Source: Ochromonas danica (Eukaryota > Sar > Chrysophyceae > Chromulinales > Chromulinaceae). From it: a DNA stretch of 64,000 bases. A model generated the notes under the pieces. The model did not search any database and was not told where the DNA came from. It saw only the letters and a list, made by a program, of their open reading frames with translations. Positions 10,535 through 57,821 of this stretch are shown piece after piece. The position numbers and the translations under genes were made by a program. Within the stretch, counting starts at the first letter, position 1. Each line of letters begins with the position of its first letter. The stretch is taken from NCBI GenBank assembly GCA_015146655.1, contig VKHL01000043.1:62001-126000 (forward strand), read 5' to 3'.

Positions 10535-10651
10535 ATTTTCAGGAAGCTTTCCACTTAAGATTGTGTGTGTGGATCGTTACAGGCGGAGGTGGGTTTGACA
10601 CAGGAACCGTTCCATCGCTTCCATCTTCACTTCCATCTTATTCTCATCCCT

Positions 10652-14377: not shown

Positions 14378-15487
14378 TTACTCTAACTTGGCAGGACCGT
14401 AAGTCAGGTAACCTTCTAAAGTCTTGGATGGATCGGCGTCGTGGCCAAACCAATGAGCTAATGGTGCATCTTCAGCTAAAGGAAGATTATTCTTGAATCT
14501 CTCCACAAGATCTGGATTGGACAAATAAGCTCTGCCGAATGCTATCAGATCTACAGCTCCTGTGCGAAGTGCTCCCTCCGCGGTGTCCTTGGTGTAGGTA
14601 ATGTTGCCGATGATGGGACCTGGGAACTCCTTCTTGATATCAAAGAGAGTGACAGGCTTGCATAAGTTATGGAAGCCAAAGCCAAGACCATCCATTACGT
14701 GCAAATAGGCAAGACCATATTTGGCAATCTCCTTGGCCAAGAAGGGAAAGAAAGTGTCATTGTCTGCACTGCCCATGCCACCGAAGACGCCATTAGGAGC
14801 GATGCGCACACCAATGCGGTCATGAGGGAAGACTTCCGCAATCGCGGTAATGATCTCATGGAGAATGCGCACGCGATTCTCAGGACTTCCACCGTACTTG
14901 TCTGTGCGCAAGTTCGTGCTGGACTGGAGGAAGGTATCGAGCAGATAGCCGTTAGCACAATGAATCTCCACACCATCGAAGCCACTTTCTTTCGCAATAC
15001 GAGCACTATGCTTATATTGTTCTGGCAGTGCTTCCACCTCTTCAGTGGTTAAGGCTCGAGGAGTAGCATATGGAACAGGTTGAGCGTTAACATCAAAAAC
15101 ACGTCCGTCACCAGGAATCTTAATGGCGGAAGGAGCGACGATCTCATTAGTTTCATGAAAGGAAGGGTGAGATTGTCTTCCCATGTGCCATAGTTGGATG
15201 AAGATCTTGCCTCCTTTGTTGTGTACTGCCTCGGCGATGGGCTTCCAACCTTCCGCGTGCTCCTGGGTATAGATGCCTGGAGAGCCGAACCAGCCATACC
15301 CTTGTGAACTAATAACGGAGGCTTCAACAATGATCAAACCCGCACTGGCACGCATTTCGTAGTACTGACGCATGTAGTCATTGGGAGTGCGAGAAGTTCC
15401 AGCTCTGCCTCTTGTGAGAGGGGCCATGACAACACGGTTGGACAGCTCAAGGGTGCCGAGCTTATAAGGAGACAATAACAGAGACAT
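14378..15487 (-). CDS. Old Yellow Enzyme family oxidoreductase, copy 3
   Basis: A 369-residue intronless OYE, third of the array, with all family residues intact (His176, Asn179, Tyr181, GRAYLSNPDLV). The middle is identical to the other copies at base level on both strands; the segment around residues 120-142 matches copy 2; the first 100 residues (GSPGIYTQEHAEGWKPIAEA) look more like copy 1. It is divergent from SAICAR synthetase with 293 bp between start codons, so the upstream motif at 15635 could serve either gene. Confidence 0.93.
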   Translation of the reverse strand: MSLLLSPYKLGTLELSNRVVMAPLTRGRAGTSRTPNDYMRQYYEMRASAGLIIVEASVISSQGYGWFGSPGIYTQEHAEGWKPIAEAVHNKGGKIFIQLWHMGRQSHPSFHETNEIVAPSAIKIPGDGRVFDVNAQPVPYATPRALTTEEVEALPEQYKHSARIAKESGFDGVEIHCANGYLLDTFLQSSTNLRTDKYGGSPENRVRILHEIITAIAEVFPHDRIGVRIAPNGVFGGMGSADNDTFFPFLAKEIAKYGLAYLHVMDGLGFGFHNLCKPVTLFDIKKEFPGPIIGNITYTKDTAEGALRTGAVDLIAFGRAYLSNPDLVERFKNNLPLAEDAPLAHWFGHDADPSKTLEGYLTYGPAKLE

Positions 15488-15634
15488 CTTTCTTGACTTG
15501 GCCCTTCTGGTATGGTGAGAATACTAATAAGATCGCGGCGGCTGGGGGTTGCGAAAAATTCCCCGCCTCTTCGGTCACTTTAACTTGTCATTGATCGAGA
15601 AAAAATCTGTTTCCAACAAGATTCCACACAGATC

Positions 15635-40628: not shown

Positions 40629-41089
40629 CTTCAACACTGTTTCTCTATTTTACCACAAGAGAGGTGTAGGAGTAAGAGAAAAATAACGAAACTGAGAAAT
40701 GGCGTTGGATATGGGAATGTTCGAGAAAATACACGAAAACAAACAAGAGAAGGAATGAATTGTCATCCTAAGCACACTGACCCGAAAGAAAATTAAGAAA
40801 ATAAATAATTTGAAGGAGCAGAATAAAGGCAGACGGAGTGAGATTCTCTCAGAGGAGGAGACAGTGAGGATGGCTGCTGGATGAGATGATTTCTCTTCCC
40901 CTTGGCTTCTCCTTCCCTCGAAACAGATGACAGACACAGACACCGCCGGACACACACACAGTCACACTACTTTAACTTCCCCTTTCTTGCACGCATCGTA
41001 GTAATAGAGGCATGGATGGCGGAGTTAAGTTGTCATTATTGCTTGCACTTCCTGATACTGCCACCTCAATAACAAAAGTCTTGGTCAGC
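40629..41089. other. SAR1 / TatA intergenic region
   Basis: Divergent promoters of SAR1 and the TatA-like gene. No additional gene is supported. A frame from 41012 extends the TatA-like protein upstream by 26 codons but is probably 5' leader. Confidence 0.5.
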
Positions 41090-41593
41090 ATGGGTTTCTC
41101 ACAGTCTTTACTCTTCGGGTTGCTTGCTCTATTGGTCTGCCTCGTTGAAGTGCGTGGATTTGTGCCATCCACTCGATTACCTTCTGTGGCCGGCCGCTTC
41201 GTCCAACAGCAGCCACAGTCATCCAATGCTCAGCCAGCCAAGTTGCCCACCTTTGGTGCGAAGCTGATCCAGACTAGACAGCAGCCTCTAAGAGATTTGC
41301 TGGGCCTTGGCCCCGTGGAAATTGGCTTGACGTTACTTGCAGCGTTGGTTCTCTTCGGCCCGGAGACCCTCAAATCACTTTCCAAGGACGTCGGCAGAGC
41401 TGCCGCTGAGCTGAAGGAAATTCCGAAGACCTTCAAAGAAGGCATGGACGAAGGTGCCGAGTCAGCGCAGGTGTCTCGCATGAAGGCCATCGCGGCGGAG
41501 AAGAGGAAGAAGAGAGAAGAGAAGCTGCAGGCTAGCGGCGATGACGACGAAGAAGCCGATGAGAGCGCAGAGGAAGTCAAGAAAGACAAATAG
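41090..41593 (+). CDS. tatA: TatA/Tha4-like thylakoid translocase subunit
   Basis: 167 residues from the ATG at 41090 (MGFSQSLLFGLLALLVCLVE). The leader is a signal peptide ending VRG, followed by FVPSTRLPSVAGRF, a basic transit-peptide-like stretch whose Phe at +1 is the hallmark of import into red-derived complex plastids. The mature part has LGLGPVEIGLTLLAALVLFG, the Phe-Gly hinge and an amphipathic helix (LSKDVGRAAAELKEIPKTF), the TatA layout; the acidic/basic tail is family-typical. Role: pore component of the twin-arginine pathway in the thylakoid membrane. TatB/Hcf106 is the alternative. Confidence 0.85.
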   Translation: MGFSQSLLFGLLALLVCLVEVRGFVPSTRLPSVAGRFVQQQPQSSNAQPAKLPTFGAKLIQTRQQPLRDLLGLGPVEIGLTLLAALVLFGPETLKSLSKDVGRAAAELKEIPKTFKEGMDEGAESAQVSRMKAIAAEKRKKREEKLQASGDDDEEADESAEEVKKDK

Positions 41594-41727: not shown

Positions 41728-42206
41728 TTATATATCTTGAAAGGAAATCTCTTTCACAAAGAGGCCGTCGCGTGTCAGTATGACCACTTTGAGGTCTCCC
41801 CCGCTGAGAATGTCTCGCTGAAAGGCGAGCCGCAAGCACCTCTCTGTTAACTTCACCAGCTGCAGAGCGTCCAAATCTGGCACATAGAGAGCTTCGCATA
41901 GAGCATGCAGCTGCGTGGTGGCACTGCCAGTGACTGCGAAGGACCGACTGGCGGTCATCGCGCCTAACGAGTCCATACTGCACAGATAGGGTCTGCCGTC
42001 GAGCTCGAAGCCCGCAATCACAGGGGTGATATAGAAGCTCTTCTCATAGAGCAAGTTCGAGAGAAGGCGAGCCACAGCCGGCGCGGCAACCTCAGATTGG
42101 AGATGATTGCAGACCTTCCCTCTCAAGAGCTCCATGATCAGCTCGCCGTCCGCGTCCAGACCATAACATCCCACAATGGATTTGTCTCCCACACGATACA
42201 CCGCAC
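41728..42206 (-). pseudogene. PSMB3: proteasome subunit beta-3 (PSMB3), 3' part
   Basis: The minus-strand frame carries the C-terminal two thirds of a beta-3 subunit: AVYRVGDKSIVGCYGLDADG, then LLSNLLYEKSFYITPVIAGF, CSMDSLGAM and the end DGLFVKEISFQDI. LLYEK and PVIAG are beta-3 hallmarks. Upstream of 42206 the frame runs into an inverted copy of the rsmE 3' end (42216 onward), so the N-terminus is missing. The missing N-terminal half lies at 54131-54360 on the other strand. Beta-3 is a non-catalytic, essential ring subunit, so another intact copy or allele is expected. Confidence 0.9.
42102..42206. repeat. 105-bp inverted duplication, left copy (PSMB3)
   Basis: Reverse complement of 54256-54360 with no difference that I can see. 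It is the overlap shared by the two halves of the broken PSMB3 gene and marks one staggered break of the inversion. Confidence 0.92.
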
Positions 42207-42215
42207 CAAGAATAC

Positions 42216-44528
42216 TCTTTAGGACCAAGAATACTGCGAACAGATACGGCTGTGGCGGTGTTAATGGGACTAGTGAATGAGTGGCTCGCGTCGCGGTCAG
42301 GGCCTGCACCCTGTTAGTCCATTTAGACAGCAATGTAATAGAACGACGATAGAACAGATAAGATGAAGAGAGGAGAGTTATTTACAACAGAAACATGTTC
42401 GTACAAGGTTGGATGGGAAGGGGTCGGGGTCTATTGGTAGGAATCGGTGAGTGCGAAGTACTCGAAGTAGTCCGCAGTGAGCGGATCGTAAAAGGACTGC
42501 AAGCCGTACTCGCCCGTGCTCTCCTGCAAGATGGATCGAGCTCGGCGAATGGCCCATTCCTCTTTGAAGTCAGGATTCGTGTCTCGCTCTTCTCCAGTGG
42601 CGGGGTTGTACCAATAAGGGTGTTTGGCCAGAGCGAAGCGCTTCGAAGCGCCGAGGCGGTCGTCTTCCACGAAACACCAGCCAGCCCATGCGCGGCTTTC
42701 GACCACTTCTCGGCCATGAATGATTTTGCGCTTCTCAGAGTTAGGGTCTAAAGGTAAGCCTGCCCTCCGCATGAGCGAAGAGTAAAGAATTTGTCTCTCC
42801 GGGAAGCGGTCGCGCAATAACTTCCAAATCTCCATCACGCGCTCATCGAAGGGCGCCAAGGCCAAGGCTCGCCGCAACAGCTTCTCCGCCACGTAACTCA
42901 ATCTATCCGGATAGAGATAGCACTGCACGATAGCGAGGTTGAGCAAAGTGCGGACATCGTAAGGCTTGCGAAGGCACGCGAATTGGAAGAGGAAATAGGC
43001 GAGTTGGAAAGTTGGCGCGCCGGGATCTCGTCGTTCGGCATCTTTCAGCAACACCATGGCTCGCTCGCGATTGATTCCCACAGGCGCTGGGCATGTCCCA
43101 ATCAAAAAGAAAGCATAGGACCGCGTGACGAGAGGGTTTGCCTCGGACAGCTCGACTGCCTGGCGGTAGAGTTCCTTCGCCGACTCTTCCTCCAAGTCGA
43201 CCACATGCTCCGCCAGGGCGTAGTTCACCACAGCTGACAGCTTTAACCCTCCGCCGCCATTCGTTTGATGATACTTCGGCTCGGCAGAACGATACATGTG
43301 TCCAGCTTTGATGAAGTCTTTGAGAGGCATGGATATCGTCTTGAGCAGGTAATTGCGAGCCAGCGCCTGAAGAATGCGGGCGGCAGCATCGGGAAGCAAA
43401 TGAGTGTACTTGCCAGTGAACGGGTTGACGTAGTGCTCGTGAGGTATCCCTTGCTCGTCGTAGTAGTAGATGGTCTCCCAGTGAGAGGTGGGGATGGTGG
43501 GCAAGTCGCACGGCCCCAACAGCTTCGGCTTCTCCCATGCACTCGCGCCAGTGTAGCGATTGAGATAATAAGACGAGTCGGGATCGCCCGGGACAGAGTA
43601 GACCTTGAGCATCACTGCATCGAGCATGCGCACAATAACAGGACGCACCAACGCTCTCCTCCAGACGGACTGGATCTTGATGATCATCTCCTTCTTCTTG
43701 CTCTTCAGCAGATGGCAAGCAAAGAGCACCTTGAACTGACCGTGCCTGGTGTCAATAGCAAGGTGCTGGACTATCCAGACATGGAAAAGCTTTCGATTCT
43801 TGGGCTTTAGAATGGGAGGATCGGAGAACTTCTCCATTTCCTCCTTGCAGTTCACTTGGTATTCCTCTGTTATCCAGGCGCGCATCTCCTTCATGGGCAT
43901 CTTGCAGGTGAAGACCTTGCTGGAGACTGTGTGATAGCATTGAACTGCCACGTCATCCACAGTCTCGAACACTTTGCACACGAAGAAATGGCCTTGAATG
44001 CGAATGGCTCGGGTCAACGCCTTTTCTCCGCGCTGGCCCAGAGCGTGTTTGGAGAGAATGACCGTCGGGGGCGACTTGGCGTGCAAGCCTTTGCTTTGAT
44101 GGACAATGAGACGAGCCGCCATGAGTCGCTTCAAGTTGCGGATGTCCATCATCTCTCCCACAGTCACTACCTCGACTTCCAGCTCCAGCGCCATGTAGCT
44201 GCGCAACTCGCTGTCCTCCAAAGTGAAGTGGAAGGTTGTCTGGCTGATGGGCGCGTACACTTCGATGTTGATTCCGTAGTCTTTGGTGTAGTTGCGAGGA
44301 TCCTTGCGCATGACAGTGATGAACACCATCACTCCGCTCAGCCGCACGGCTTCAGCGTAAATGACAGCTTTCTTCTCAGCTTGGCGCAACTTCTTCAACC
44401 GCTGCCGCCGCGCCTTGACAATAATGATTTGCTGGCGCTTGATCTGCTCCATGACATGCAGATACCAACATCGTTTGAGGAATCTGCGGATCCAGGCGTT
44501 GATTCTTGTCACGTAGTAATAGCGCATG
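42216..44528. repeat. 2,313-bp inverted duplication, left arm
   Basis: Reverse complement of 54360-56672. It contains the last 698 codons of the giant WW/IQ gene, the intergenic bases, and the last codons of rsmE (antisense here, about 42216-42311). The translated frames of the two arms are identical, implying no or almost no divergence. Confidence 0.95.
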
Positions 44529-47500
44529 CGATAGGCCCAATCTTCATAAAGCAAGGATCGAACAGCTGCTGTGCGGCGGGCAGATAGCTTGCGGCGGATA
44601 TTGGCCTGCAATTTGATGTGTTGCTTCAGAAAGTTCAAATATTTCCCTCTGGCCAGCCAGCCGCGCAGAATTGCCGCCAAACGAGTGGCTGCACAATAGG
44701 GAAGCGCTTCTTTCTTCATGGCCATGACCTTGGCCTCTTGCCAGGGCACTTCATACCAATGCGGATAGAGCATCAAGTAGTCCAAAACGAACTTCTGCAG
44801 AGCAAATTGCATGTGTTCCGGGTCGATCCAGGGGGTAGCGGACTCCTCCTCGGGGACATTCTTGAGCGCTCGCTTGTTGCTATTCAGCGTGGAGTTCTTC
44901 CTCAACATGGTGCCACGAGTTAAGCTCGTCGATGAAGGATTGCGGCCCAACGACGAAATGGTTCGAGACATCGCTCGCTTCAAAGACGATCCAGCTGAAG
45001 TATTCCCTCCGAGCCCTGGCCCTCCTTCGTCGCCAACACTGCTCAGGTCGTCCGTCATGAGAGAACTGTTGTCATCGTCCTCCTTCTCTTTCGAGGACGG
45101 CGCGTTGCTATTGATGGTGGCCTTTCTCTTGGACTGCTGCGGGTTAGAAGAAGCGACACTTTGCTGCTGGCCGTCTTCGTCGTCGCCGTCCTTCTTGTTG
45201 CTCTTCTTCTTGGGAGGGAAGCGCAACAGAGAGACGTCTTTCACCCACTGTACAAACCCAACGAAGGAGAGGTATTTTTGAACTATGCCCATGTCAGTCT
45301 TGACCAGCTTTTGGAAGAGTGCGTCAATCTGTGCAATGCGAGCGGGTCGTTTGAGATCGGGAAAGGCCTGCACTTCCTTGAGAAGCTTCACCAGCTTGTT
45401 GCGATCCACGCCTTTCCGATACACAGGCAACCATTCAGTGAGACGGTCAAAGATTGTGCGCAGGTAGAATTCGAAAGGAATATTCCGCATTTCTTGTACT
45501 CGTTGACTATGAGGACAAGCGAGACGTTGATCTGTGCAAAGGACTTCGAGATAGGAATAGTAAGCCCGAACACGGAAGAACACGAAGAATTCGTCGCTAT
45601 TGGTCAGCGAGTAGCTGTAGTGGACCAGTCCATCGTCATAGAGCTGTCGCCACTTCGGCCGCGTATCTTCCTTTGCTGGAATGCATTTCCAGATCCAAAC
45701 ATCCTCGAAGGCGCGGAGGAGAGGAGGGCGTGCAGACTTCTTCGTCGCTTGGCTCGCACTGCTCGCAGTTGTTGCAGTATGCCTTGAAACGTCATCACCG
45801 CCTGCTCCGGCGGTAGCAGAACCTCCGACTCCATCTTTCAAGGATTGGCCATCGCCAGCGACATTCGCGGCCGTGGAGAGAAGCGGCGCGGAGGGATCGA
45901 GAGCGGCCGCTTTCTTGGCCCACTGAATAGTTTTGTTGATCTGCAGACCAAACTCTTCCGGGTAAGTGTAGACATTTTCGACTTTTCCCTGCCCCTGCTT
46001 TGCTTGTTGTTCTGGTTGTTGCTGTTGTATCTTATCCTTGGCGGGATGTAGCAACTGCATTGGTGCGCCAGTCTCTGGATGATAATAGATGCCAGCAGTC
46101 TTCGCAGGCCAAGGAGTGCGTCCCTGGATGGGCATGTGAAAGTCTGGTTCAGTGAGCAAATCATACTCTGGGTCGATGAAGACTACCGTGTAGTCGATGC
46201 GGTCCTCATCTACCCGCCTGCCCACTGCTGACACGAGGTAGTCCCTGCCCAGCACGTTGCCAATGCGGATAATATCTCCAGGTAAGAGAAGGTTTTGAGC
46301 ATCATGGAGCAAGTAGATCTCTCCCTTCCCTTCATAGATCGAGCAGAGTGTAGGCAGAGGGACTGGATGGTAGCGGCCAGGCACGCGGCGCTGACCTTTC
46401 ACCATTTTCCTCATCACCGCTGGCCCTGCATCATTCTTCTTAGCCAAATGGGGATTCAGTAAGCGCTTTTGAAGGATATCATCAGTCTCGATGGCAATCT
46501 CATGGCTTTGAAGAGCCTTGGGCAGCAGGAAACAAGTGGGAAGGCAGTCCCAGGCTCGTCGGAAGCTTTCTTGCCGTAGAGAACAAACCACTCCTTTGTA
46601 AAGAAATCGAAACTGCTGAGGCAGTTCGTCTGGATCCATCTCATGTTTGATGAGGATGCGCAGGTCAGACAGTGTTTGTTGATTATTGATCTCCACGCTG
46701 CCAAGCTCTGCTTCCTCTTGATCAGCTTGTGCCAAGCAAATAACTGTTATCATGCGCGTCTCCACATAACTAACCAGTTCCAGGCGTTGCCGCCCATTGT
46801 CAGTGATGACCTTCAGCTTGTCGAGCAAAGCAGTGGAAAGGTTCTTGCGCTCTTCGTAAGCGAGCAGCTTGACAGGCCAGCCTTCAGAGAGCACAATCTC
46901 CTCAACTTCCTGCTCTGTTAACCGCCGGGACACTATCCGTTCAGCGCTTGCATCCTCCTTTGAATGATTCTTGGCTTGGACAGGCTGTGGGAAGACTGCG
47001 ACTTCACCTCCGAATGCCTGAACAGTGAGCAGGAGAACCTGTTGGGACAACGTGCGCACTTCTCTCGCTAACTGCCGTTCAAACACCAACTCCCAACTGT
47101 CGACTGACGATTTATACGGATGACTAACTGATCCTTTGAAGTGAACAGCAAGTCGATTGAGAACGTTCCACAGCAAACTCTCAGGATGACTTTCCACCTG
47201 TTCGCGATCCTTTGACGTCGTTATGGCGACGGCTTTGCTGTTAATGAGAGGAGCGTGACCGAAAGCGAGCAACTCCGCCCGAGTCCATTGAAAAGACAAC
47301 GTGATCTTCTGGCTGGCTGCTTCTCCCTGCGCCTCTTGCCGCTGGGCGTCTTCCTCAACGCCATTGTCGTAAGGATCCTCATCATCCGAGAACTCGTCGA
47401 GGTTGACCATGTCGAGATTATCATTTTCCACAGAGTTGGCGAGTAGTCGAAGGTACGCTTTCTTGCTGGGCAAGGTCAGGTTGATTTCGAGGCGCAGCAT

Positions 47501-50419
47501 CTCCAAGTCTTGCCGCGCCACCAATCCGCACTCCAAGCCCACGATCTTGGGCAGATTGCGTGATTTCCAGTGTTCAATGAGCTGAGGGGAGAGTGCAATC
47601 TGACGATTGAGCTCGACCTCGAGCAACAGCAAAGTGTTAAGATTGACTGTTCCTGTGGCCACCTCGCCACCCACCTCTTGGCTCTCCATTTCGTTCCTGC
47701 GAGGCGTCAACGTGATTTGAGATGTCACAGAGACATTTTCATCGAGAGGTTTCAAAGTCTTGGCTAATCGGGAAGTGGTGCCTCCCAAGGAAAGAGCGGG
47801 CACTTTGCGAATCTTAATTTGTGAAGCGAGCCATTGCGCAATGATTTGCAACGAAGACCACTTCACCATGGCTTGCTTAAACAGAGCGTTTTGATTAATG
47901 AGGAGGACCTCCAGCTCGCGGTCGTGCAAGTCAATGACCACAGGCCCTGCCCCTCCCGCTGCGCCACTTCCACGCGCACCAAACAGCCCCGCGATGGGAG
48001 TGACATAGACGACGAGGCCATCACAGCGGTCATTTCTGGATATTGTGAGGTCTACGAGGACCTGGTCCTCAGTAAATTTACTGTTCAGAAGCACACGATT
48101 GAAGGGTAGCAGCACTTCTTGCTCTGCATCCGACTGTCCCTCCACTCTCGTGAGAGACGAAGACATTCCTGTGTTCTGAGCCAACTTCACTAACTCATCC
48201 ATAACAGGTGCAACCATACTTTCGCGCTGCTTTGCCTTGGCTGCGATGAGGTCGTCGAGGGTGTTGGAGGTGATCTGCGAGTACATGAGCTGCGACACAC
48301 GGCTGCGCTGCAAGAGAATCTGCTCCTGCATGTTAGCTGAAGCAGGTAGAGGCTTTACACGCTGATCATCAAGTAGGTGGTACGTCAAAGCATAGCCAAG
48401 GGTGACAGAGATCTCTCCCCACAAGCACCGCTGATCAACATCCATTTGCAGAGACACCATCGCAGAGTATACTTCTCCCTCCTCTCCTCCCCCTCCACCG
48501 CCACCAATAGTGGCGCTGCCTATCCTATGGCGATAGCCTACGAGAGGAATCGTCCTCTGGGCCACAAGAAGAGGTGTCGAACCTGCTGTTCTTGCCGAGG
48601 GTTTCTTGGGTCGTGAAAATGGATCGAAAGCGTTGACACCGGGAACAGTGAGACCGTGTCTTGCAAGCATATGCGCGTCCAAACTGCTCACTTCGTAGTG
48701 TCGAGGATCCAAAACATGCCTACGCAGCAGCTCGTTTTGCATTTTCTGCACCTCATACCGCAGGGAGCTGAGCGTCTCCTGCGCCGGGAAGCCTTCTTCG
48801 TCAGCTGCTCGAAGCAATCCCAGCTCCCGAATAGCTTTTTCCACTTCCACTTTGATCTTCCTGCGAATAATCGCAGGAGGGGCGGCTGATGGGTCGAACT
48901 CCATGCTCTCCACAGGAGCAGGAGCAGGTGGAAGAGCCTTACGCTTCAAAGGTCTGCGCAAAGGCGAAACATCCACAGCAGCATTGGAATCTTGGATTAT
49001 CATGTCCGTGCCGACTTCCTTCGTCTGCATTGAAGAGGAAGGAGGAGGTTGAGTCACTTGCTGATGATGAGGTCTGGCAGCGGGAATTGAGGTTCCAGGT
49101 CGCCCATCCAGGCGGCGAGGAGAGAAGGTAGTGAGTCTTTTCTTCCGCTCCGCATCCACAACAGTTATCTGCTCGTGGGTCTTCTCGAAATCATCAGCCT
49201 GCACCTCCACGGCTAAGGCATTAGGAGGAGAAGCGGTGCGAGGAGGGGAAGGGAACTCTTCCTGCCCCATTCCTGCCTCCGCGATACGCTCCATCGTAGG
49301 CGGTCGACTCATTCTCCTTCCTTTAGCTGATCCAGATGGCAAGCCGGGCAGTCCAGAAGCAGTGGTGGAAGCAGAGGCGGTGATCCGAAACTCCGCTGAA
49401 ACCCCTGTTTTGGACAGTTCTTGAGTTGCATTTAGGACAAGCTCCATCCACTCGAGAAGAAATCTCGTGATGGGGTCATCGAGATAGTCCAACGTGCACT
49501 CGCGCAGGTATTGTCGCACAGCAACTTGCACATCAATGCGCATAGGCTGCGCGCCTTGGAATTGATTCAAGCGCATGAGAAAGTCATGGGCTTCAATATT
49601 GAACACGGGACTTTGGAGGCAGTTCAAGTTGGCTTCATCTTGCTGGTAGTTGTTGGTGTGGTTCGAGTCGTTGTCCAGGAGGACGCAAACCGATCGAAAC
49701 ACCTTCTCCAGGTTGAGGTCGTCGCGCATCCTTTCCAGCAGAAGTTCCAGTTCGTACAGATCAATTGGGAGGCGGTTAAGCACCTGTGCCTCTGCGCGCA
49801 ATAGAGCCCGCGAGGCTCGCTTATACCGCAACAGCTCGAGCACTTTGACCTCTTCGTCCACATTGCCCGGCTCGGGATGAGGAGGCTGCGCCACGGCCAG
49901 CTCGTCGATCGTCTTCCCCAAGAGAAAAGGGTTTCGGCGGTTTGGAAAGACGACAGGCAACATGACTTTAATGTTGGGGATGGAGAAGAGGTCGTTGACG
50001 TCGTCGATGATGTCGACCATCGCGTAGATGTCTTCCTTCTCCTCCATCGCCTTGAAGCTCGTGATGGGCGGCAAGCGGCCGAATTTGAAGGCTCTGTGCG
50101 TACTCTTGGAGCTCGACATTCTCGCCCTGTACTCGATCTCCAGCGCGTCTTCGATGAGCGAGAGGGTCGTCTGGCGGATGTCCAACAGCATCTTGCGCAA
50201 CATGGGCAGAGGCGTGGAGCTGTCCAAGGCCGCCTCGCGCAGGCGATGGATCATGCCCTGTCGCTTCTTGACGGCATGGAGAAAGTCCTTCCAGATGATG
50301 GTGGACTTGTCCACGAGGTTGCCCGTCGTGCCCGGCCGCGGAGCCACTGGCTGGCCGTAGGGCGAGAGCTTCGACCCCGCGGACTGGATGTCTCGCACAC
50401 TATTCACGACAGAATACAT
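42431..50419 (-). CDS. giant WW/IQ/TPR-containing protein
   Basis: A single 2,662-residue frame with no intron. The N-terminal 1,500 residues have no domain I recognise, with Pro/Ser linkers and acidic stretches. Residues about 1,950-2,350 hold IQ-like calmodulin-binding segments (LAAILRGWLARGKYLNF, IIKIQSVWRRALVRPV, AARILQALARNYLL), a WW-like unit (SSYYLNRYTGASAWEKP) and further Trp-Pro modules (YYDEQGIPHEHYVNPFTG; YWYNPATGEE). Near the C-terminus lie TPR-like helical pairs (LYRQAVELSEANP, LLNLAIVQCYL, LLRRALALAPFDE). Likely a cytoskeletal or axonemal scaffold. Its last 698 codons lie in the inverted duplication, but this copy is complete. Confidence 0.85.
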   Translation of the reverse strand: MYSVVNSVRDIQSAGSKLSPYGQPVAPRPGTTGNLVDKSTIIWKDFLHAVKKRQGMIHRLREAALDSSTPLPMLRKMLLDIRQTTLSLIEDALEIEYRARMSSSKSTHRAFKFGRLPPITSFKAMEEKEDIYAMVDIIDDVNDLFSIPNIKVMLPVVFPNRRNPFLLGKTIDELAVAQPPHPEPGNVDEEVKVLELLRYKRASRALLRAEAQVLNRLPIDLYELELLLERMRDDLNLEKVFRSVCVLLDNDSNHTNNYQQDEANLNCLQSPVFNIEAHDFLMRLNQFQGAQPMRIDVQVAVRQYLRECTLDYLDDPITRFLLEWMELVLNATQELSKTGVSAEFRITASASTTASGLPGLPSGSAKGRRMSRPPTMERIAEAGMGQEEFPSPPRTASPPNALAVEVQADDFEKTHEQITVVDAERKKRLTTFSPRRLDGRPGTSIPAARPHHQQVTQPPPSSSMQTKEVGTDMIIQDSNAAVDVSPLRRPLKRKALPPAPAPVESMEFDPSAAPPAIIRRKIKVEVEKAIRELGLLRAADEEGFPAQETLSSLRYEVQKMQNELLRRHVLDPRHYEVSSLDAHMLARHGLTVPGVNAFDPFSRPKKPSARTAGSTPLLVAQRTIPLVGYRHRIGSATIGGGGGGGEEGEVYSAMVSLQMDVDQRCLWGEISVTLGYALTYHLLDDQRVKPLPASANMQEQILLQRSRVSQLMYSQITSNTLDDLIAAKAKQRESMVAPVMDELVKLAQNTGMSSSLTRVEGQSDAEQEVLLPFNRVLLNSKFTEDQVLVDLTISRNDRCDGLVVYVTPIAGLFGARGSGAAGGAGPVVIDLHDRELEVLLINQNALFKQAMVKWSSLQIIAQWLASQIKIRKVPALSLGGTTSRLAKTLKPLDENVSVTSQITLTPRRNEMESQEVGGEVATGTVNLNTLLLLEVELNRQIALSPQLIEHWKSRNLPKIVGLECGLVARQDLEMLRLEINLTLPSKKAYLRLLANSVENDNLDMVNLDEFSDDEDPYDNGVEEDAQRQEAQGEAASQKITLSFQWTRAELLAFGHAPLINSKAVAITTSKDREQVESHPESLLWNVLNRLAVHFKGSVSHPYKSSVDSWELVFERQLAREVRTLSQQVLLLTVQAFGGEVAVFPQPVQAKNHSKEDASAERIVSRRLTEQEVEEIVLSEGWPVKLLAYEERKNLSTALLDKLKVITDNGRQRLELVSYVETRMITVICLAQADQEEAELGSVEINNQQTLSDLRILIKHEMDPDELPQQFRFLYKGVVCSLRQESFRRAWDCLPTCFLLPKALQSHEIAIETDDILQKRLLNPHLAKKNDAGPAVMRKMVKGQRRVPGRYHPVPLPTLCSIYEGKGEIYLLHDAQNLLLPGDIIRIGNVLGRDYLVSAVGRRVDEDRIDYTVVFIDPEYDLLTEPDFHMPIQGRTPWPAKTAGIYYHPETGAPMQLLHPAKDKIQQQQPEQQAKQGQGKVENVYTYPEEFGLQINKTIQWAKKAAALDPSAPLLSTAANVAGDGQSLKDGVGGSATAGAGGDDVSRHTATTASSASQATKKSARPPLLRAFEDVWIWKCIPAKEDTRPKWRQLYDDGLVHYSYSLTNSDEFFVFFRVRAYYSYLEVLCTDQRLACPHSQRVQEMRNIPFEFYLRTIFDRLTEWLPVYRKGVDRNKLVKLLKEVQAFPDLKRPARIAQIDALFQKLVKTDMGIVQKYLSFVGFVQWVKDVSLLRFPPKKKSNKKDGDDEDGQQQSVASSNPQQSKRKATINSNAPSSKEKEDDDNSSLMTDDLSSVGDEGGPGLGGNTSAGSSLKRAMSRTISSLGRNPSSTSLTRGTMLRKNSTLNSNKRALKNVPEEESATPWIDPEHMQFALQKFVLDYLMLYPHWYEVPWQEAKVMAMKKEALPYCAATRLAAILRGWLARGKYLNFLKQHIKLQANIRRKLSARRTAAVRSLLYEDWAYRMRYYYVTRINAWIRRFLKRCWYLHVMEQIKRQQIIIVKARRQRLKKLRQAEKKAVIYAEAVRLSGVMVFITVMRKDPRNYTKDYGINIEVYAPISQTTFHFTLEDSELRSYMALELEVEVVTVGEMMDIRNLKRLMAARLIVHQSKGLHAKSPPTVILSKHALGQRGEKALTRAIRIQGHFFVCKVFETVDDVAVQCYHTVSSKVFTCKMPMKEMRAWITEEYQVNCKEEMEKFSDPPILKPKNRKLFHVWIVQHLAIDTRHGQFKVLFACHLLKSKKKEMIIKIQSVWRRALVRPVIVRMLDAVMLKVYSVPGDPDSSYYLNRYTGASAWEKPKLLGPCDLPTIPTSHWETIYYYDEQGIPHEHYVNPFTGKYTHLLPDAAARILQALARNYLLKTISMPLKDFIKAGHMYRSAEPKYHQTNGGGGLKLSAVVNYALAEHVVDLEEESAKELYRQAVELSEANPLVTRSYAFFLIGTCPAPVGINRERAMVLLKDAERRDPGAPTFQLAYFLFQFACLRKPYDVRTLLNLAIVQCYLYPDRLSYVAEKLLRRALALAPFDERVMEIWKLLRDRFPERQILYSSLMRRAGLPLDPNSEKRKIIHGREVVESRAWAGWCFVEDDRLGASKRFALAKHPYWYNPATGEERDTNPDFKEEWAIRRARSILQESTGEYGLQSFYDPLTADYFEYFALTDSYQ

Positions 50420-50925
50420 TAATTATTCACTCTTCTTAATCTTCTTCTTTCTCTCTACAAATTCAAAATCTGCGAGGAGAAGGCATAGTCTAGTGGAAGT
50501 GCAGGAAGATCAAAAGCGGCCAGTGGGTTGGTTGGGCTGCGGTTGTCTCACTAGCTGTCTTAAGTAGAGGTAGTAGACAAGATGTTCGCTCTAGTAGTAA
50601 TGGTAGTAGTGGGAGTAGTAGTCTAGCAGTAGTTTGTGCTTGTCCACATCAAGAAACGGAAAGACGCCTTAAATTAAGTAAATACATAAAACAATTAAGC
50701 AATAAACTAATTTACAGTAATGTTACAAAAGGTACAGGCTGGGTGCACAGATGGGGTAGCTCTGCCGTGCCGCAGCAATTCCCATTGCAATACTTCTATG
50801 GTAGCCCATTGAAGTTGTTGTATGAAAGAGGCAGCAAAGAGCAGAGAGACAGAGACCCACAGACCTATTAGCTGATGCTATTTCACCATATCCATGAGAG
50901 GTACAGTACACTTTCTTCTTCAGAT
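50420..50925. other. promoter region of the giant gene; simple sequence
   Basis: No gene. Contains AGT/TAG-rich simple sequence around 50560-50640, then AT-rich sequence that probably includes the 3' UTR of the gene at 50926. Confidence 0.5.
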
Positions 50926-51492
50926 TTAATCAGAGAAGCGATTAAGACGAGCTTCCCGTGCTGCTTTTGCCTCTTCGTTCCCTCCGAGCTGCCTGCCATT
51001 ACTCTGTCCCTTCGCAAAGATTCCGCGCAAGAACTGCACCGCATTTGAGGCCCAGGCGACCACGTCAACGCGCTCTCTCAGAAAGAGGAAGGCGCTGAGA
51101 AGACCGACCATGCAAGTAGTCGCGATCCACTTTCCTCTGCCACCATCTCCAGACCAGAAGGAGGAAGAGCCCGCAGCTGCCTCCATGCGGTCGTCCTTCT
51201 CCAACTTGCCGCACAATGCCTTTAGCTCGGTCTTCCTCGTCTGCCACTCCTTGGGCAGCAGGGACGGGTTGTGCTCGGCTTGCTTGAGGAGCGAGCAGAG
51301 GCGGCGCAGGTTGGCGCGGTATTTGGCGGAGAGCGGCAGCGAGTCATCCTCTCCGGCTCTCTGGAAGGAAATCTCTGTGGCAGAAGCCAGGGTCACCACC
51401 TTCTCCTTCTCCACAAAATTCAGCCAAGTGCTGATGGTCAAGGAGAGAAAGGCAAGAAATAGCAGGCTTGCTCTCATGGCGGGACTGCTCAA
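50926..51492 (-). CDS. small membrane protein with two hydrophobic segments
   Basis: 188 residues (the second ATG, MRASLLFLAF, may be the real start). Residues 8-25 form a signal peptide or anchor, residues 30-115 a charged helical region (KYRANLRRLCSLLKQAEHNP), then a membrane helix at about 122-138 (WIATTCMVGLLSAFLFL) and a basic tail ending AAREARLNRFSD. No family is recognised. It is divergent from the gene at 51603, with 110 bp between starts. Confidence 0.6.
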   Translation of the reverse strand: MSSPAMRASLLFLAFLSLTISTWLNFVEKEKVVTLASATEISFQRAGEDDSLPLSAKYRANLRRLCSLLKQAEHNPSLLPKEWQTRKTELKALCGKLEKDDRMEAAAGSSSFWSGDGGRGKWIATTCMVGLLSAFLFLRERVDVVAWASNAVQFLRGIFAKGQSNGRQLGGNEEAKAAREARLNRFSD

Positions 51493-51602
51493 GATGGACT
51501 GGTTGACTGCTATTAAGTTAACGAATTCGGTCTTATTAAGTTAAACACACATCTTTTGGAAATAATAAATCGGAAGAAGAAGTTGAGTCACATCTTCATG
51601 AG

Positions 51603-52490
51603 ATGACGATCGAGATGTTTCCTGAGGACGAGATTTTGGATTGTCTTATCGACCTTCTCCCAGGGCAGCCTAGCACCGCCGACCTCTGCCCCACAGCCTC
51701 TGCCAACACGTCTCTCTCCTCGATGCTGGCAAAGCGCAGTTCATGCTGTCGTGAAGAAGATTCTTGGTCTACTTTCCTTGAAGGAGAAAGTCGTTCGTCA
51801 GATAGTACCTGTCTGATGAAGCGTCCGCCGTCCTCCTTGTCTGTCCCTGGGGCAAGTGTCAAGCGAATGAGACATCGCAAACCTCGACAGCGCGTCTCGC
51901 CCTTCCCTCGCATTCTCAAGAGAGACATTCGCCGAGACTACCCCGCTATGTACGCTAATGTTCTCAATACCGCGGAGAGAAGTTGTATCGAGGCCTTCTT
52001 GCGCACCTTCTGCGTGCCCAGCTGCGCCATGGAGGACTTCTACCTCCACCAGACCTCCACCTCCCTCGAGAGAATCCCTGTCGTCAAGCTCTTCTCGGTC
52101 GATCGCATTGTGAATCGCTTGTCCACCGAGATTGAAGGGGCGCCAGACTTTGCCATGCGCCTTCTAAAGGCGTAGATATTTCGACACATCCACGAGCCAG
52201 GCAGCAAGGTCGTCATGGACGTGAGGATTCAATCTTTCAACAACGACCAAGATATGGTACATTATGTGGATGAAACCAAGCAGATGAGTCACATTGTACC
52301 GCGTTTTATATACGAGAACATGTCCGAGAGCGATCGTATGGATACCACGGTCATCGAGAGCTTCCGGTCGACGTACGACTGCAACATGCCGGGGAAGATA
52401 GTGCTGCATCTGGATGGAATTAATCGAATCAACTACATGGAATTCGTGGGCACGGTCACACAGCAGTCATTGGGGCTAGAGAGTGTGTGA
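51603..52490 (+). CDS. unknown protein with one in-frame TAG
   Basis: One frame runs from the ATG at 51603 to the stop at 52488-52490, interrupted by a single TAG at 52173-52175. Both sides read as coding: upstream YPAMYANVLNTAERSCIEAF and FAMRLLKA, downstream IFRHIHEPGSKVVMDVRIQS and VHYVDETKQMSHIVPRF. There is no GT-AG intron that neatly removes the TAG. The N-terminal 100 residues are Ser/Arg-rich, as in transcription regulators; the C-terminal part (VPRFIYEN, DGINRINYMEFV) has the feel of an NTF2/SnoaL-like fold, unconfirmed. Options: recent nonsense change, base-call error, read-through, or two separate genes. Confidence 0.5.
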
Positions 52491-52675
52491 GTATAACATT
52501 AGCTTGTGTCGTAGGTATTTACTTGTTAGTTTAGTTCAATTAGAATGCGTGATGGAGCAGTTTTCAATACTGCATGCAATATAAAGATGTTAACACAAGA
52601 TTGATGCTAAATCTTCTCAAAAACGTTCACTTTGGAAGGATAGAGCCCATCTCAGTAGAGCTCGAGCAGCTTTGG

Positions 52676-53757
52676 TTAGAGCTCATCAGATGCCTCTGCT
52701 TGTTCGTAGATATTGAGATAATTGACAAGCCAGTAGGTCTCTTGAAATTGTTCAGGATTGGATGCCACGAAAGTCACACAGTCAGTGGAGCTGTACTGAG
52801 GGCAAGAAGAGGACCAGACTGCTCCAGCCCAGTCACCACAGAAAGCAATGTTAAACACGATCTTGTGGTTTTGGAACTTATTTGAAGGGCAATTGCTCCC
52901 CAGCGTCCACTGTCCCACAGGTTTCCCCCAAGAAGAGGGATTGGGGTTGGCAGAGTTCACGTCCGAAGGACTCTGATCGCGACTGAAGACGAAGACGCGA
53001 ATCAACTCATTGGTCCACTCCATTGCGTAAACACCCCCTCCATTAGCATTGAAGCCCTCACCAAAGCTCCCAGCAGAGCCAAGCACACCGCAGCCAGCAT
53101 TGTCTGTCATCCTCACATCGCAGTTGGTGTTCAGCCAAGTGCCAGTGAAGGAAGATGAAGATTCTGGGGGCATGGCACACCCAGAACCAGTGTGCAAAGT
53201 CTGAATATTGGCAGTTGGGTTATGCACTTGCTCAATAATGTCGATTTCCCCATTGTTGGGCCAGTTGTCGCCGTAGGTCCAGAAAGCAGGCCAGCTCCCG
53301 CAGCCGTAGGGCATGTGTGCCAAGTCGAGAACGAACAGTCCTCTGGTATAGAGCTCTTTGCTCTCCAAACGCACGGAGTCGCGAAATCCGCCGTAGGTCG
53401 TCGTATCAACTCCACTGTGACCACAAGCAGAGTCAGCGAGAGTATTCAAGGAGGATGGGGGAGGGAGGGGTGCATTACATGTAGACTTGGTCTTGCGGAT
53501 TGACCGAAATTAACTGCTTCGAGGTGGCCACATCTTGAGACACGTAAGTGACTTCCGAACAGAAGCATTCATCAACAGGAGAAAAGAGTTGTTTGGGTGC
53601 AGCAGTCTGTCTTACCACTTCCATGAGTGGGATCTGGTGCCGTGAAGAAGTTGAAAGCGTCGAAGAAGGTCTTTCCGCTGTGCGCTTCCTTCAATACATA
53701 CGCTGCATGGCTTCCTCTCACGAGGAGCACGAGCAAAGCCAGACTGAGAGAGATCAT
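52676..53757 (-). CDS. secreted GH16 beta-1,3(-1,4)-glucanase
   Basis: Three exons (53616-53757, 53479-53551, 52676-53414) encode 317 residues. Signal peptide MISLSLALLVLLVRGSHA. The fold is the GH16 jelly roll with the catalytic signature GEIDIIE (Glu128, Asp130, Glu133), preceded by CGSWPAFWTYGDNWP, as in fungal and oomycete-type endo-beta-glucanases; aromatic subsite residues are kept. Exon 1 ends with FFTAPDPTHG, exon 2 supplies VTYVSQDVATSKQLI, both normal for the family. Role: hydrolysis of laminarin- or chrysolaminarin-like glucan, either for feeding or for storage/wall turnover. It lies inside the inverted segment. Confidence 0.92.
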
Positions 53758-54130
53758 GATATTGAAAGCTCAAATGGATTGAGAATGGACGAGACGAGAC
53801 GAATGTCCAGAACAACGAGCCGCAGCAAGCGCTTATCCCGTACTGCACATTGCCATTGTCTTCAACAAGAATTTTCCCCGCCAGAGCAACCGGAACGAAC
53901 CGCAGAGACTCCAGCGGGAGTGGGACCGCCCAAAGACAAGAGACAAATCCCTCTAAGCCGAAGAACGCGTTCGTCTTCGGAGAAAAGCGCGATTCCTCTC
54001 TTTATGTATTTCCTTAATTTCTCCTGTGTTGACAGACGAAGAGTTCATCTCCTGGGTTCAGTGGATAGTTCACAATGATTTTCCTAATATTTGAATTGCT
54101 TCTATCTCTATGTCTGCCTTGGTATCTGTT
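53758..54130. other. region between GH16 and the PSMB3 5' fragment
   Basis: Promoter side of GH16. It probably also contains a short first exon and intron of PSMB3, since a good splice acceptor (TTGGCAG) ends at about 54136, but I could not settle the PSMB3 start codon. Confidence 0.45.
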
Positions 54131-54136
54131 GGCAGG

Positions 54137-54360
54137 GGAGAGCTTCAACGGCGGGACGTTCCTCGCCTTGGCTGGGAAGGAGAGCGTGGTGATCGCCACG
54201 GACTCTCGCTTCTCTCACCACCGCTTCTCTTCTTTGCTCTTGGGGCATCACCCTCGTGCGGTGTATCGTGTGGGAGACAAATCCATTGTGGGATGTTATG
54301 GTCTGGACGCGGACGGCGAGCTGATCATGGAGCTCTTGAGAGGGAAGGTCTGCAATCATC
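54137..54360 (+). pseudogene. PSMB3: proteasome subunit beta-3 (PSMB3), 5' part
   Basis: Reads GESFNGGTFLALAGKESVVI then ATDSRFSHHRFSSLLLGHHP, the N-terminal strands of a beta-3 subunit (family pattern SYNGGxxxAxxGxxxVAIAxDxRF, no catalytic Thr), then AVYRVGDKSIVGCYGL. At 54360 it stops abruptly and joins, out of its own frame, the truncated copy of the giant gene. The last 105 bases are shared with the 3' half at 42102-42206. The resulting chimeric open frame (54075-54512) is not a real gene. Confidence 0.88.
54256..54360. repeat. 105-bp inverted duplication, right copy (PSMB3)
   Basis: Reverse complement of 42102-42206. Its right end coincides with the left end of the 2,313-bp arm, sharing one base (C at 54360). 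Confidence 0.92.
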
Positions 54361-56672
54361 ATGCGCTATTACTACGTGACAAGAATCAACGCCTGGATCC
54401 GCAGATTCCTCAAACGATGTTGGTATCTGCATGTCATGGAGCAGATCAAGCGCCAGCAAATCATTATTGTCAAGGCGCGGCGGCAGCGGTTGAAGAAGTT
54501 GCGCCAAGCTGAGAAGAAAGCTGTCATTTACGCTGAAGCCGTGCGGCTGAGCGGAGTGATGGTGTTCATCACTGTCATGCGCAAGGATCCTCGCAACTAC
54601 ACCAAAGACTACGGAATCAACATCGAAGTGTACGCGCCCATCAGCCAGACAACCTTCCACTTCACTTTGGAGGACAGCGAGTTGCGCAGCTACATGGCGC
54701 TGGAGCTGGAAGTCGAGGTAGTGACTGTGGGAGAGATGATGGACATCCGCAACTTGAAGCGACTCATGGCGGCTCGTCTCATTGTCCATCAAAGCAAAGG
54801 CTTGCACGCCAAGTCGCCCCCGACGGTCATTCTCTCCAAACACGCTCTGGGCCAGCGCGGAGAAAAGGCGTTGACCCGAGCCATTCGCATTCAAGGCCAT
54901 TTCTTCGTGTGCAAAGTGTTCGAGACTGTGGATGACGTGGCAGTTCAATGCTATCACACAGTCTCCAGCAAGGTCTTCACCTGCAAGATGCCCATGAAGG
55001 AGATGCGCGCCTGGATAACAGAGGAATACCAAGTGAACTGCAAGGAGGAAATGGAGAAGTTCTCCGATCCTCCCATTCTAAAGCCCAAGAATCGAAAGCT
55101 TTTCCATGTCTGGATAGTCCAGCACCTTGCTATTGACACCAGGCACGGTCAGTTCAAGGTGCTCTTTGCTTGCCATCTGCTGAAGAGCAAGAAGAAGGAG
55201 ATGATCATCAAGATCCAGTCCGTCTGGAGGAGAGCGTTGGTGCGTCCTGTTATTGTGCGCATGCTCGATGCAGTGATGCTCAAGGTCTACTCTGTCCCGG
55301 GCGATCCCGACTCGTCTTATTATCTCAATCGCTACACTGGCGCGAGTGCATGGGAGAAGCCGAAGCTGTTGGGGCCGTGCGACTTGCCCACCATCCCCAC
55401 CTCTCACTGGGAGACCATCTACTACTACGACGAGCAAGGGATACCTCACGAGCACTACGTCAACCCGTTCACTGGCAAGTACACTCATTTGCTTCCCGAT
55501 GCTGCCGCCCGCATTCTTCAGGCGCTGGCTCGCAATTACCTGCTCAAGACGATATCCATGCCTCTCAAAGACTTCATCAAAGCTGGACACATGTATCGTT
55601 CTGCCGAGCCGAAGTATCATCAAACGAATGGCGGCGGAGGGTTAAAGCTGTCAGCTGTGGTGAACTACGCCCTGGCGGAGCATGTGGTCGACTTGGAGGA
55701 AGAGTCGGCGAAGGAACTCTACCGCCAGGCAGTCGAGCTGTCCGAGGCAAACCCTCTCGTCACGCGGTCCTATGCTTTCTTTTTGATTGGGACATGCCCA
55801 GCGCCTGTGGGAATCAATCGCGAGCGAGCCATGGTGTTGCTGAAAGATGCCGAACGACGAGATCCCGGCGCGCCAACTTTCCAACTCGCCTATTTCCTCT
55901 TCCAATTCGCGTGCCTTCGCAAGCCTTACGATGTCCGCACTTTGCTCAACCTCGCTATCGTGCAGTGCTATCTCTATCCGGATAGATTGAGTTACGTGGC
56001 GGAGAAGCTGTTGCGGCGAGCCTTGGCCTTGGCGCCCTTCGATGAGCGCGTGATGGAGATTTGGAAGTTATTGCGCGACCGCTTCCCGGAGAGACAAATT
56101 CTTTACTCTTCGCTCATGCGGAGGGCAGGCTTACCTTTAGACCCTAACTCTGAGAAGCGCAAAATCATTCATGGCCGAGAAGTGGTCGAAAGCCGCGCAT
56201 GGGCTGGCTGGTGTTTCGTGGAAGACGACCGCCTCGGCGCTTCGAAGCGCTTCGCTCTGGCCAAACACCCTTATTGGTACAACCCCGCCACTGGAGAAGA
56301 GCGAGACACGAATCCTGACTTCAAAGAGGAATGGGCCATTCGCCGAGCTCGATCCATCTTGCAGGAGAGCACGGGCGAGTACGGCTTGCAGTCCTTTTAC
56401 GATCCGCTCACTGCGGACTACTTCGAGTACTTCGCACTCACCGATTCCTACCAATAGACCCCGACCCCTTCCCATCCAACCTTGTACGAACATGTTTCTG
56501 TTGTAAATAACTCTCCTCTCTTCATCTTATCTGTTCTATCGTCGTTCTATTACATTGCTGTCTAAATGGACTAACAGGGTGCAGGCCCTGACCGCGACGC
56601 GAGCCACTCATTCACTAGTCCCATTAACACCGCCACAGCCGTATCTGTTCGCAGTATTCTTGGTCCTAAAGA
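54360..56672. repeat. 2,313-bp inverted duplication, right arm
   Basis: Reverse complement of 42216-44528. Here the rsmE 3' end belongs to a complete rsmE gene, while the giant-gene part is the truncated copy. Confidence 0.95.
54361..56457 (+). pseudogene. 5'-truncated copy of the giant WW/IQ gene
   Basis: A 698-codon frame starting at an internal Met (MRYYYVTRINAWIRR) and identical to the C-terminus of the gene at 42431-50419. It has no promoter of its own and is joined to the PSMB3 5' part. It keeps the WW, IQ and TPR-like modules and an intact frame, so a truncated product is conceivable if the PSMB3 promoter drives it. Confidence 0.85.
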
Positions 56673-57545
56673 AGTGATAATAAATCCATGCTGAGCGAAG
56701 AGCTGGACTTCGCCGGCTTCCCATCCGCCCTCAGGCCCGATGGCGAGGATGACGCGATCCTTTCCCTCCCACCGCTCGTCCGGCCGCCTGAAGATCTCGT
56801 GTGCTTCTATCGACTGTAATGTAGAAGGGCTTCTTTGTGCATCAGATGGAATCGGTGGATGGGCGATGAGGCGAAGGGTTCGGCTGGGCTCGCGGTCCAT
56901 CCCCGCCAGCTCGTCCCTCAGAAAGGAAAACAAGTTCTTGTGCACGACAACTTGCGGCAGGTGACAGTCCATAGCCGCTTGAGACAGACCCTCTATTAAC
57001 AGATCCTTCATGGCCTCTGGCCTTCGCAGCAGGTGGGAGCCGAAGTAGTCCTTCTCGACTTTCTTGGCGCCCACCAGCGCGATTTGGTCCACGCCAAGGC
57101 AGGTGATCACTGGAATCAGCCGCTCCAGCCTCATTGGGCGAGGCAAGGCAAGGATGAGACTAACGCGAGGCTTGGGCGGCTGCTTGAGGCCCTGCGCTGG
57201 GCCTAAAGTGATCTGCACGCCCTCCCCCGCGGCTGGGAAGGACACGACGCCAGCGTCGGTGATGCCTCGATGGAGGATGCCGCACTTGATAGGGTCTCCT
57301 TCCTCCAGCTTCAAGACGCGTTCGATGTGATTGGCTCGAGGGTCGAGAGGCGGCAGGCGCACGACGAGTCTGTCCACGTCCTTCTCGCTGACCACCTCGT
57401 CTGGCTCGAAGAGAATGCGATTGAGAAAGCGCTTGCTCCCCACAAGTCCCACTCTTCCACGACATGAAAAGAGGGAGGGCCGCAGCATAGAAGCTAAAGG
57501 GAGGTGCCAAGCCAACCAAATCAAAGCAAGAAAGATCGATTGCAT
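56571..57545 (-). CDS. rsmE: RsmE-type 16S rRNA (uracil-N3)-methyltransferase
   Basis: 324 residues, longer than bacterial RsmE because of a hydrophobic leader (SIFLALIWLAWHLPLASML) followed by Ser/Arg-containing sequence, consistent with organelle, probably plastid, targeting. It is a SPOUT (trefoil-knot) enzyme that methylates the uridine equivalent to E. coli U1498 using SAM. Seen: NHIERVLKLEEGD in the PUA-like part, SLILALPRPMRLE, and the SAM-knot motifs LAIGPEGGW and LGPRILRTDTA. Its last 34 or so codons lie in the inverted duplication. Converges with the truncated giant-gene copy, 113 bp apart. Confidence 0.9.
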   Translation of the reverse strand: MQSIFLALIWLAWHLPLASMLRPSLFSCRGRVGLVGSKRFLNRILFEPDEVVSEKDVDRLVVRLPPLDPRANHIERVLKLEEGDPIKCGILHRGITDAGVVSFPAAGEGVQITLGPAQGLKQPPKPRVSLILALPRPMRLERLIPVITCLGVDQIALVGAKKVEKDYFGSHLLRRPEAMKDLLIEGLSQAAMDCHLPQVVVHKNLFSFLRDELAGMDREPSRTLRLIAHPPIPSDAQRSPSTLQSIEAHEIFRRPDERWEGKDRVILAIGPEGGWEAGEVQLFAQHGFIITSLGPRILRTDTAVAVLMGLVNEWLASRSGPAPC

Positions 57546-57821
57546 TCCATCACAAAATCACGAAGTCTCGCCTTCTCTTCTTAAGTTAACTCTTCTTCTT
57601 AGTAAGTTAACGTTCTGGTGACAATTGGATGGCAGTGTTACGATTAGTTTAGCCATTTGATCGAGTCGTCGTGCGAGTTAAGCTCGTCAACGAAGATGCT
57701 CTCCATACATAGCATCGTTGTGCTAGTAAATCTAAATCACACACACACAAATTCACAACATTTTATATAAACACACCAATTCTAACGCAACAAGTCCACC
57801 AGTTAGACCAGACTAGAGGGT
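57546..57821. other. intergenic between rsmE and the long coiled-coil gene
   Basis: AT-rich, with an ACACAC run near 57738. Promoter side of rsmE and 3' UTR of the coiled-coil gene; no other feature. Confidence 0.5.

Follow-up and report, generated by a model that had tools for sequence, protein, structure and literature searches.

How a small inversion arises, and what becomes of the genes at its ends, is the question raised by a segment of about 12 kb in the genome of the chrysophyte alga Ochromonas danica. The segment lies in a window of 64,000 nucleotides, the whole stretch of DNA that was analysed (contig VKHL01000043.1, positions 62,001 to 126,000; all coordinates below are those of the window). 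Here, a gene for a proteasome subunit of the beta-3 type is split in two, and inverted duplications are present at both ends of the segment. The original prediction had read the locus as an inversion with duplicated breakpoints. Our results support that reading, through both repeat pairs and through computational un-inversion, and amend it with regard to filler DNA at one junction, the identity of the broken gene and a rival history in which a duplicative insertion was followed by a flip. The history considered most probable, with moderate confidence, is a young rearrangement of the duplication-inversion-duplication (dupINVdup) type, which would have been produced by staggered breaks, fill-in of the ends, backward rejoining and, at one junction, alternative end joining.

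Within the window, which contains no N, the two inverted pairs that had been predicted were found by letter-for-letter comparison to be exact in position and length. The longer pair, denoted B, covers 2,313 bp (42216-44528, plus strand; 54360-56672, minus strand) and the shorter, denoted A, covers 105 bp (42102-42206, plus strand; 54256-54360, minus strand), each being 100% reverse-complementary. With the flanks denoted X and Y, the locus runs from X through A, 9 bp, B and the middle to a reversed A, a reversed B and Y. It consists of two duplications with two common junctions and is not a single long palindrome. The inverted segment measures 12,144 bp (42216-54359), and its single-copy middle (44529-54255) contains the 5' part of a giant open reading frame (ORF), small ORFs, a gene resembling GH16 glucanases and the 5' part of beta-3. 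The left A is beta-3 coding sequence joined to the native downstream half of the gene, and the right A is joined to the native upstream half. The left B carries the 3' end of the giant ORF, joined to its native 5' part, together with an orphan 3' end of an rsmE-like gene; the right B carries an orphan 3' end of the giant ORF and the native 3' end of rsmE, and has base 54360 in common with the right A. When the window was compared with itself (blastn, E up to 1e-6), inverted matches apart from these pairs were confined to two segments of 62 bp (20142-20203/25788-25847; 84%) and to self-palindromes at 10775-10947 (74%) and 2715-2795 (86%). Given this scarcity, 2,313 and 105 exact bases at two common junctions are not a matter of chance. 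A transposon was rejected as an explanation of B, since B is made up of the 3' ends of two convergent ORFs; its only match in the window at E up to 1e-6, moreover, is the partner copy.

The ancestral order was rebuilt from the sequence up to 42206, the reverse complement of 44529-54255 and the sequence from 54360 onward, with single copies of A and B kept. In the resulting order, X - A - reversed middle - B - Y, a single uninterrupted beta-3-like ORF of 219 codons is obtained. An intact PSMB3-type gene had been expected on one side of the ancestral arrangement, and a giant gene followed by a convergent rsmE on the other. Both expectations are borne out. The giant ORF (42431-50422, minus strand; 2,663 codons from stop to stop) is open in the present and the un-inverted order alike, and the rsmE-like RNA methyltransferase ORF (56571-57557, minus strand; PF04452, E=9.4e-29) is uncut, being crossed by no junction, with its last 34 codons, stop included, lying in the right B. 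In the present order, beta-3 exists as two fragments that overlap within A, neither of which has acquired a frameshift or a stop. The 5' fragment (54075-54512, plus strand) comprises 95 native codons with a signal-peptide-like start, followed by 50 novel codons from B. The 3' fragment (41728-42204, minus strand) retains the last 158 of the 219 codons and matches the Pfam family Proteasome with E=2.7e-21; its stop-to-stop ORF extends over 41728-42381, where the first Met is native residue 85. On the same strand as the 5' fragment and downstream of it is a truncated copy of the giant-ORF tail (54361-56457, plus strand; 698 codons), the ATG of which follows immediately after the shared junction base, and on the left side an orphan rsmE 3' end is left over. 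The net effect would be a beta-3 gene in two pieces, neither of which should be functional, a giant ORF and an rsmE gene that are both whole, and two orphan gene tails.

The two junctions differ from each other. At the right one, a single base is shared (C, 54360), by which pairs A and B overlap. At the left one no base is shared, and the arms stand 9 bp apart (42207-42215, plus strand). Both junctions had been recognised earlier, with these nine bases left unexplained; they are now read as templated filler. Together with the AC that precedes it at the end of A and the T that follows it at the start of B, the filler constitutes a 12-nt direct repeat whose copies lie 19 bp apart (42205 and 42224), and its apparent template is 42226-42234 (56654-56662, minus strand, in the rsmE copy). 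Within the window, the 9-mer occurs as the filler, the template site and the mirror copy, and nowhere else. The template copy is rsmE coding sequence inside the Pfam match, which makes the direction of copying clear. In 200,000 draws, a random 9-mer of the window was found near a random point, on either strand, 265 times within 30 bp, 500 times within 50 bp and 1,164 times within 100 bp; at 6 of 63,940 window positions a 12-mer recurs in the next 30 bp, the filler repeat being among the six. Synthesis-dependent microhomology-mediated end joining (SD-MMEJ) leaves behind, according to the extracts of PMC7407515 used here, a repeat, direct or inverted, in which the microhomology is contained. The left junction has the structure of SD-MMEJ and polymerase theta-mediated end joining (TMEJ), with filler copied from nearby in a repeat that includes the microhomology, AC, filler and T recurring together. 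The 9 bp are taken to be a templated scar of alternative end joining. An assembler has no evident way of making such a scar, and this speaks for real DNA at the left junction, if not at both. When the four ancestral nick sites were set side by side, no common motif was obvious by eye, no motif test being made. A 24-nt pattern across the left junction gave 0 matches in the genome contig collection searched, as expected for a eukaryote.

The favoured course of events would proceed in stages. In the ancestral order, A would have stood between the downstream and the upstream half of beta-3, with the giant ORF, B and rsmE following at a distance. Two breaks 12 kb apart would have been made, one in beta-3 with a 105-bp stagger and the other across the 3' ends of the giant ORF and rsmE with a 2,313-bp stagger. 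During the second stage, fill-in of the ends would double A and B, after which the middle would be rejoined backwards. On the right, the ends would be joined with 1 bp shared. On the left, the join would be sealed by alternative, polymerase-theta-like end joining, in which the AC end would prime on rsmE sequence that lies 10 bp in from the end of its partner, copy CAAGAATAC and anneal on T. What is found at the locus is what characterises dupINVdup and staggered-break rearrangements, namely inverted duplications at both ends with two shared junctions, and a disrupted gene that is restored on un-inversion. The order, the exact duplications, the filler and the restored ORF can be read directly from the sequence; staggered breaks as opposed to replication, the repair enzyme and the presence of the arrangement in the organism are inferences.

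Several points weigh against this course. Staggered, filled-in breaks had been put forward as a known signature of natural inversions; in the portions of PMC5080602 drawn on here, inversion O4 of Drosophila subobscura provides a parallel, whereas in the majority of those named, O8 and five others, just one of the breakpoints has given rise to duplicates. For ends that are filled in, a stagger of 2,313 bp is long; the single base shared at the right junction says nothing by itself, and the reconstruction rests on a single assembled sequence. In 2,418 duplicated bases there are 0 differences, which places a 95% upper bound of 0.00124 on divergence. Such identity means one of three things, a young event, conversion or a wrong sequence, as had already been proposed and is kept here. 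Zero differences and undecayed beta-3 fragments are equally expected from a recent mutation in culture, from one allele of a diploid or from an assembly fault.

Other histories lead to the same or a closely related sequence. The B copies form perfect inverted arms of 2.3 kb, so the middle can be turned by recombination, or misoriented by an assembler if reads do not span an arm, and it is this turnable middle that makes a duplicative insertion plus a flip a serious alternative to inversion in one event. Here, a break in beta-3 with a 105-bp stagger would have taken up, in inverted orientation, a 2.3-kb copy of the 3' ends of the giant ORF and rsmE from about 10 kb away, giving the intermediate X-A-(9 bp + B)-A-middle-B-Y, and the middle would later have been turned, by homologous recombination between the 2.3-kb arms or by assembler placement. 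Turning the inner 9,831 bp by script gives the insertion isomer, with direct copies of A at 42102 and 44528 around the insert, the giant ORF intact and beta-3 still broken; its junctions are identical, and the filler fits it equally. Two further direct local copies, of 293 bp at 100% (19145-19437/20289-20581) and of 142 bp at 98.6% (2531-2672/5911-6052), also point to short-range copying in this genome, although the edges of the 293-bp copy are without a target duplication. We regard this history as rather unlikely. A second step is needed unless the orientation in the assembly is arbitrary. A single replicative event, by microhomology-mediated break-induced replication (MMBIR) or fork stalling and template switching (FoSTeS), is held to be similarly improbable. 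On reaching the end of A, a fork would change template to the opposite strand at the far end of B, copy back 12 kb and switch forward at B, which explains the 2.3-kb duplication without long overhangs, more easily than staggered breaks do. Replication-based mechanisms are preferred by the authors of PMC6286558 for human complex structural variants, dupINVdup included, in the part of that paper used here; in the same part, none of the eight junctions has less than 3 bp of microhomology, whereas here 1 bp is shared at one junction and the filler at the other is anchored by 2 nt and 1 nt. The product would be the same as that of staggered breaks, and the two cannot be told apart from its sequence.

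An artefact of assembly or library preparation, with junctions absent from the organism, appears very unlikely. Perfectly identical arms, and a proteasome gene that is broken yet without any decay, would be in keeping with it. However, assemblers misjoin at shared sequence, and the junctions share 1 bp on the right and none on the left, for which reason a misassembly of that kind was judged unlikely. Furthermore, the 9-nt filler, anchored on both sides and copied from just inside the partner end, resembles a repair product, and two independent chimeric joins would be required in the same contig. A young inversion through staggered breaks is retained as the preferred history.

The joined beta-3 protein was compared with PDB chains, the best 60 of 178 matches being used. 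Among these, the best match scored 94.7 bits; of the top 16 sequences, 13 are named beta-3 or PUP3 and three are plainly named "proteasome subunit beta" (8oix, 7qve, 8ysx), these three matching human beta-3 best. The first chain with another name is beta type-1, at 72.6 bits. By best match among the beta subunits, the broken gene would encode a beta-3 subunit, and a very divergent one. For comparison, the scores of human beta-3 serve as a yardstick: 247 bits against 7qve, which we take to be a plant entry, 242-244 against 10mt, 1g65 and 8u6y (PUP3, yeast type) and 236 against 8oix. Its scores are 222 against 6qm7 and 214 against 9f9p, both presumably trypanosomatid, 194 against 5fmg, presumably Plasmodium, and 129 against 8adn, assumed to be a fast-evolving microsporidian. 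The joined protein lies below the similarity usual between distant eukaryotic beta-3s (94.7 vs 194-247 bits), on a yardstick that is indirect and has no heterokont entry among those compared. At the N-terminus, a segment of ~20 residues resembles a signal peptide, with a hydropathy peak of 2.65 over 12 residues (1.74, 2.13 and 2.38 for three nearby ORFs), and it directly precedes the part that matches canonical beta-3 from about residue 5. An alternative source of this hydrophobic stretch is an intron whose pyrimidine tract ends in CAG at 54135, for which a scan gave 8 candidate short first exons; a cytosolic beta-3 of unusual type would then still be conceivable, which counts against the compartment proposed below. 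Adjoining beta-3 is a TatA/Hcf106-like ORF (40976-41593, plus strand; PF02416, E=0.0011, 18.6 bits, under the curated cut-off of 21) that would have, if started at its second in-frame Met, a hydrophobic segment and then FVPS. A hydrophobic segment followed by a motif of the FVPS type is typical of plastid proteins in heterokont algae, and the ORF is thereby a weak pointer to an ochrophyte host.

In plastid-bearing heterokonts, host-encoded 20S subunits reach the periplastid compartment by means of a signal peptide, without a 19S cap, according to the sections of PMC5070193 and PMC5756292 used here. The same sections report haptophytes and apicomplexans without periplastid 20S subunits and several cryptophytes, not all, with 20S subunits encoded in the nucleomorph, and they describe the role of the periplastid 20S proteasome as unsettled. 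Divergence, the signal-peptide-like start and these reported heterokont subunits together lead to the reading of the broken gene as a periplastid 20S beta-3 of heterokont algae, a fitting assignment with a predicted location. The gene is probably not the housekeeping PSMB3; the name originally given to it stands for the family, by best match, and probably falls for the housekeeping subunit, by the score relative to the yardstick and the signal-peptide-like start. In a scan of viral contigs, none of 4 pattern matches to the joined beta-3 and none of 21 to the giant-ORF tail was confirmed as a relative.

The locus preserves an undecayed inversion, resolved to the base, with both duplications and a repair scar, and so records how a small inversion arose before mutation blurs it. 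Provided that the inverted order is real and homozygous, the locus would constitute a natural test of the need of heterokont algae for a periplastid 20S proteasome; if that order is fixed in a living strain, that proteasome would be dispensable or in the course of being lost there. Once the middle has flipped, both 105-bp copies of A have the same orientation and stand 2,426 bp apart as direct repeats, so that one more recombination would remove the insert and bring back an intact beta-3. The idea that the periplastid proteasome is knocked out naturally and perhaps reversibly, with the arms flipping the middle and further recombination excising the insert, is conceivable and must be rated a long shot.

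Other features of the window may be described briefly. The GH16 beta-1,3-glucanase-like ORF within the inverted segment (52676-53509, minus strand) matched 22 PDB sequences, beta-1,3-glucanases and laminarinases, the best being 5jvv_B (E=2.3e-62); despite these strong matches it has no Pfam match at E 0.01. The giant ORF likewise has none at that threshold, and its tail looks WW-like, judged by eye. The 293-bp exact direct repeat is part of a membrane-protein-like ORF, repeated 1,144 bp downstream past the ORF end. Inspection by eye shows neither a target duplication nor filler there, and the ORF drops from 448 to 336 codons when the two copies are collapsed into one; on these grounds it was rejected as a second case of the same process, and it supports local copying only. 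The second copy of the 142-bp repeat overlaps the edge of an ABC-transporter ORF (4111-6003). The palindrome at 2715-2795 is a hairpin of 81 bp that overlaps the start of a 231-aa ORF (2766-3461; no Pfam match at E 0.001) in the most AT-rich 2 kb of the window, and the region could be an inserted element. Three tandem minus-strand ORFs code for NADH:flavin oxidoreductases of the old-yellow-enzyme type (9425-10576, 12015-13139, 14378-15523); at the DNA level, two of them agree at 97% over 1,121 bp and the third matches both at 92-93% over 1,106 bp, all these matches ending near the ORF edges.

With regard to known systems, the class of rearrangement is already known; what is added here is the filler, a fuller identification of the broken gene and the alternative isomer. 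A narrow literature search on staggered inversion and inverted duplication in algae found no case, which is not proof of novelty. Duplication associated with inversion has also been reported in Helicobacter. As in the human dupINVdup class, in the extracts of PMC5338099 and PMC6286558 drawn on here, there is a duplication at each end of the inverted segment and there are two novel junctions; the two human inversions concerned are given there as 458 kb and 5.1 Mb, compared with 12 kb in an algal genome. Case P4 of PMC6286558 also has, in those extracts, inserted sequence at a junction; in P4 this is a 100-bp Alu sequence, in the present case a filler of 9 nt whose template lies 10 bp in from the end of the partner. 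Staggered breaks are argued in the consulted portions of PMC5080602 to be the prevalent inversion mechanism in D. subobscura, where O4, like the locus described here, carries parts of genes in duplicate at each breakpoint; a non-inverted arrangement was available for comparison with those inversions, whereas here that order is reconstructed from one sequence. The broken gene shares with the heterokont periplastid 20S subunits, as presented in the sections of PMC5070193 and PMC5756292 cited above, the character of a host-type gene, a divergent beta-3 product and an N-terminal signal-peptide-like segment; it differs in being split in two, and its periplastid location and signal peptide are putative. 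Compared with the insertions attributed to polymerase theta in the extracts of PMC7407515, the repair enzyme here is a putative one, proposed from the junction itself; with alternative end joining and SD-MMEJ as described there, the left junction has in common a direct repeat near the break that contains both the filler and the anchoring microhomology.
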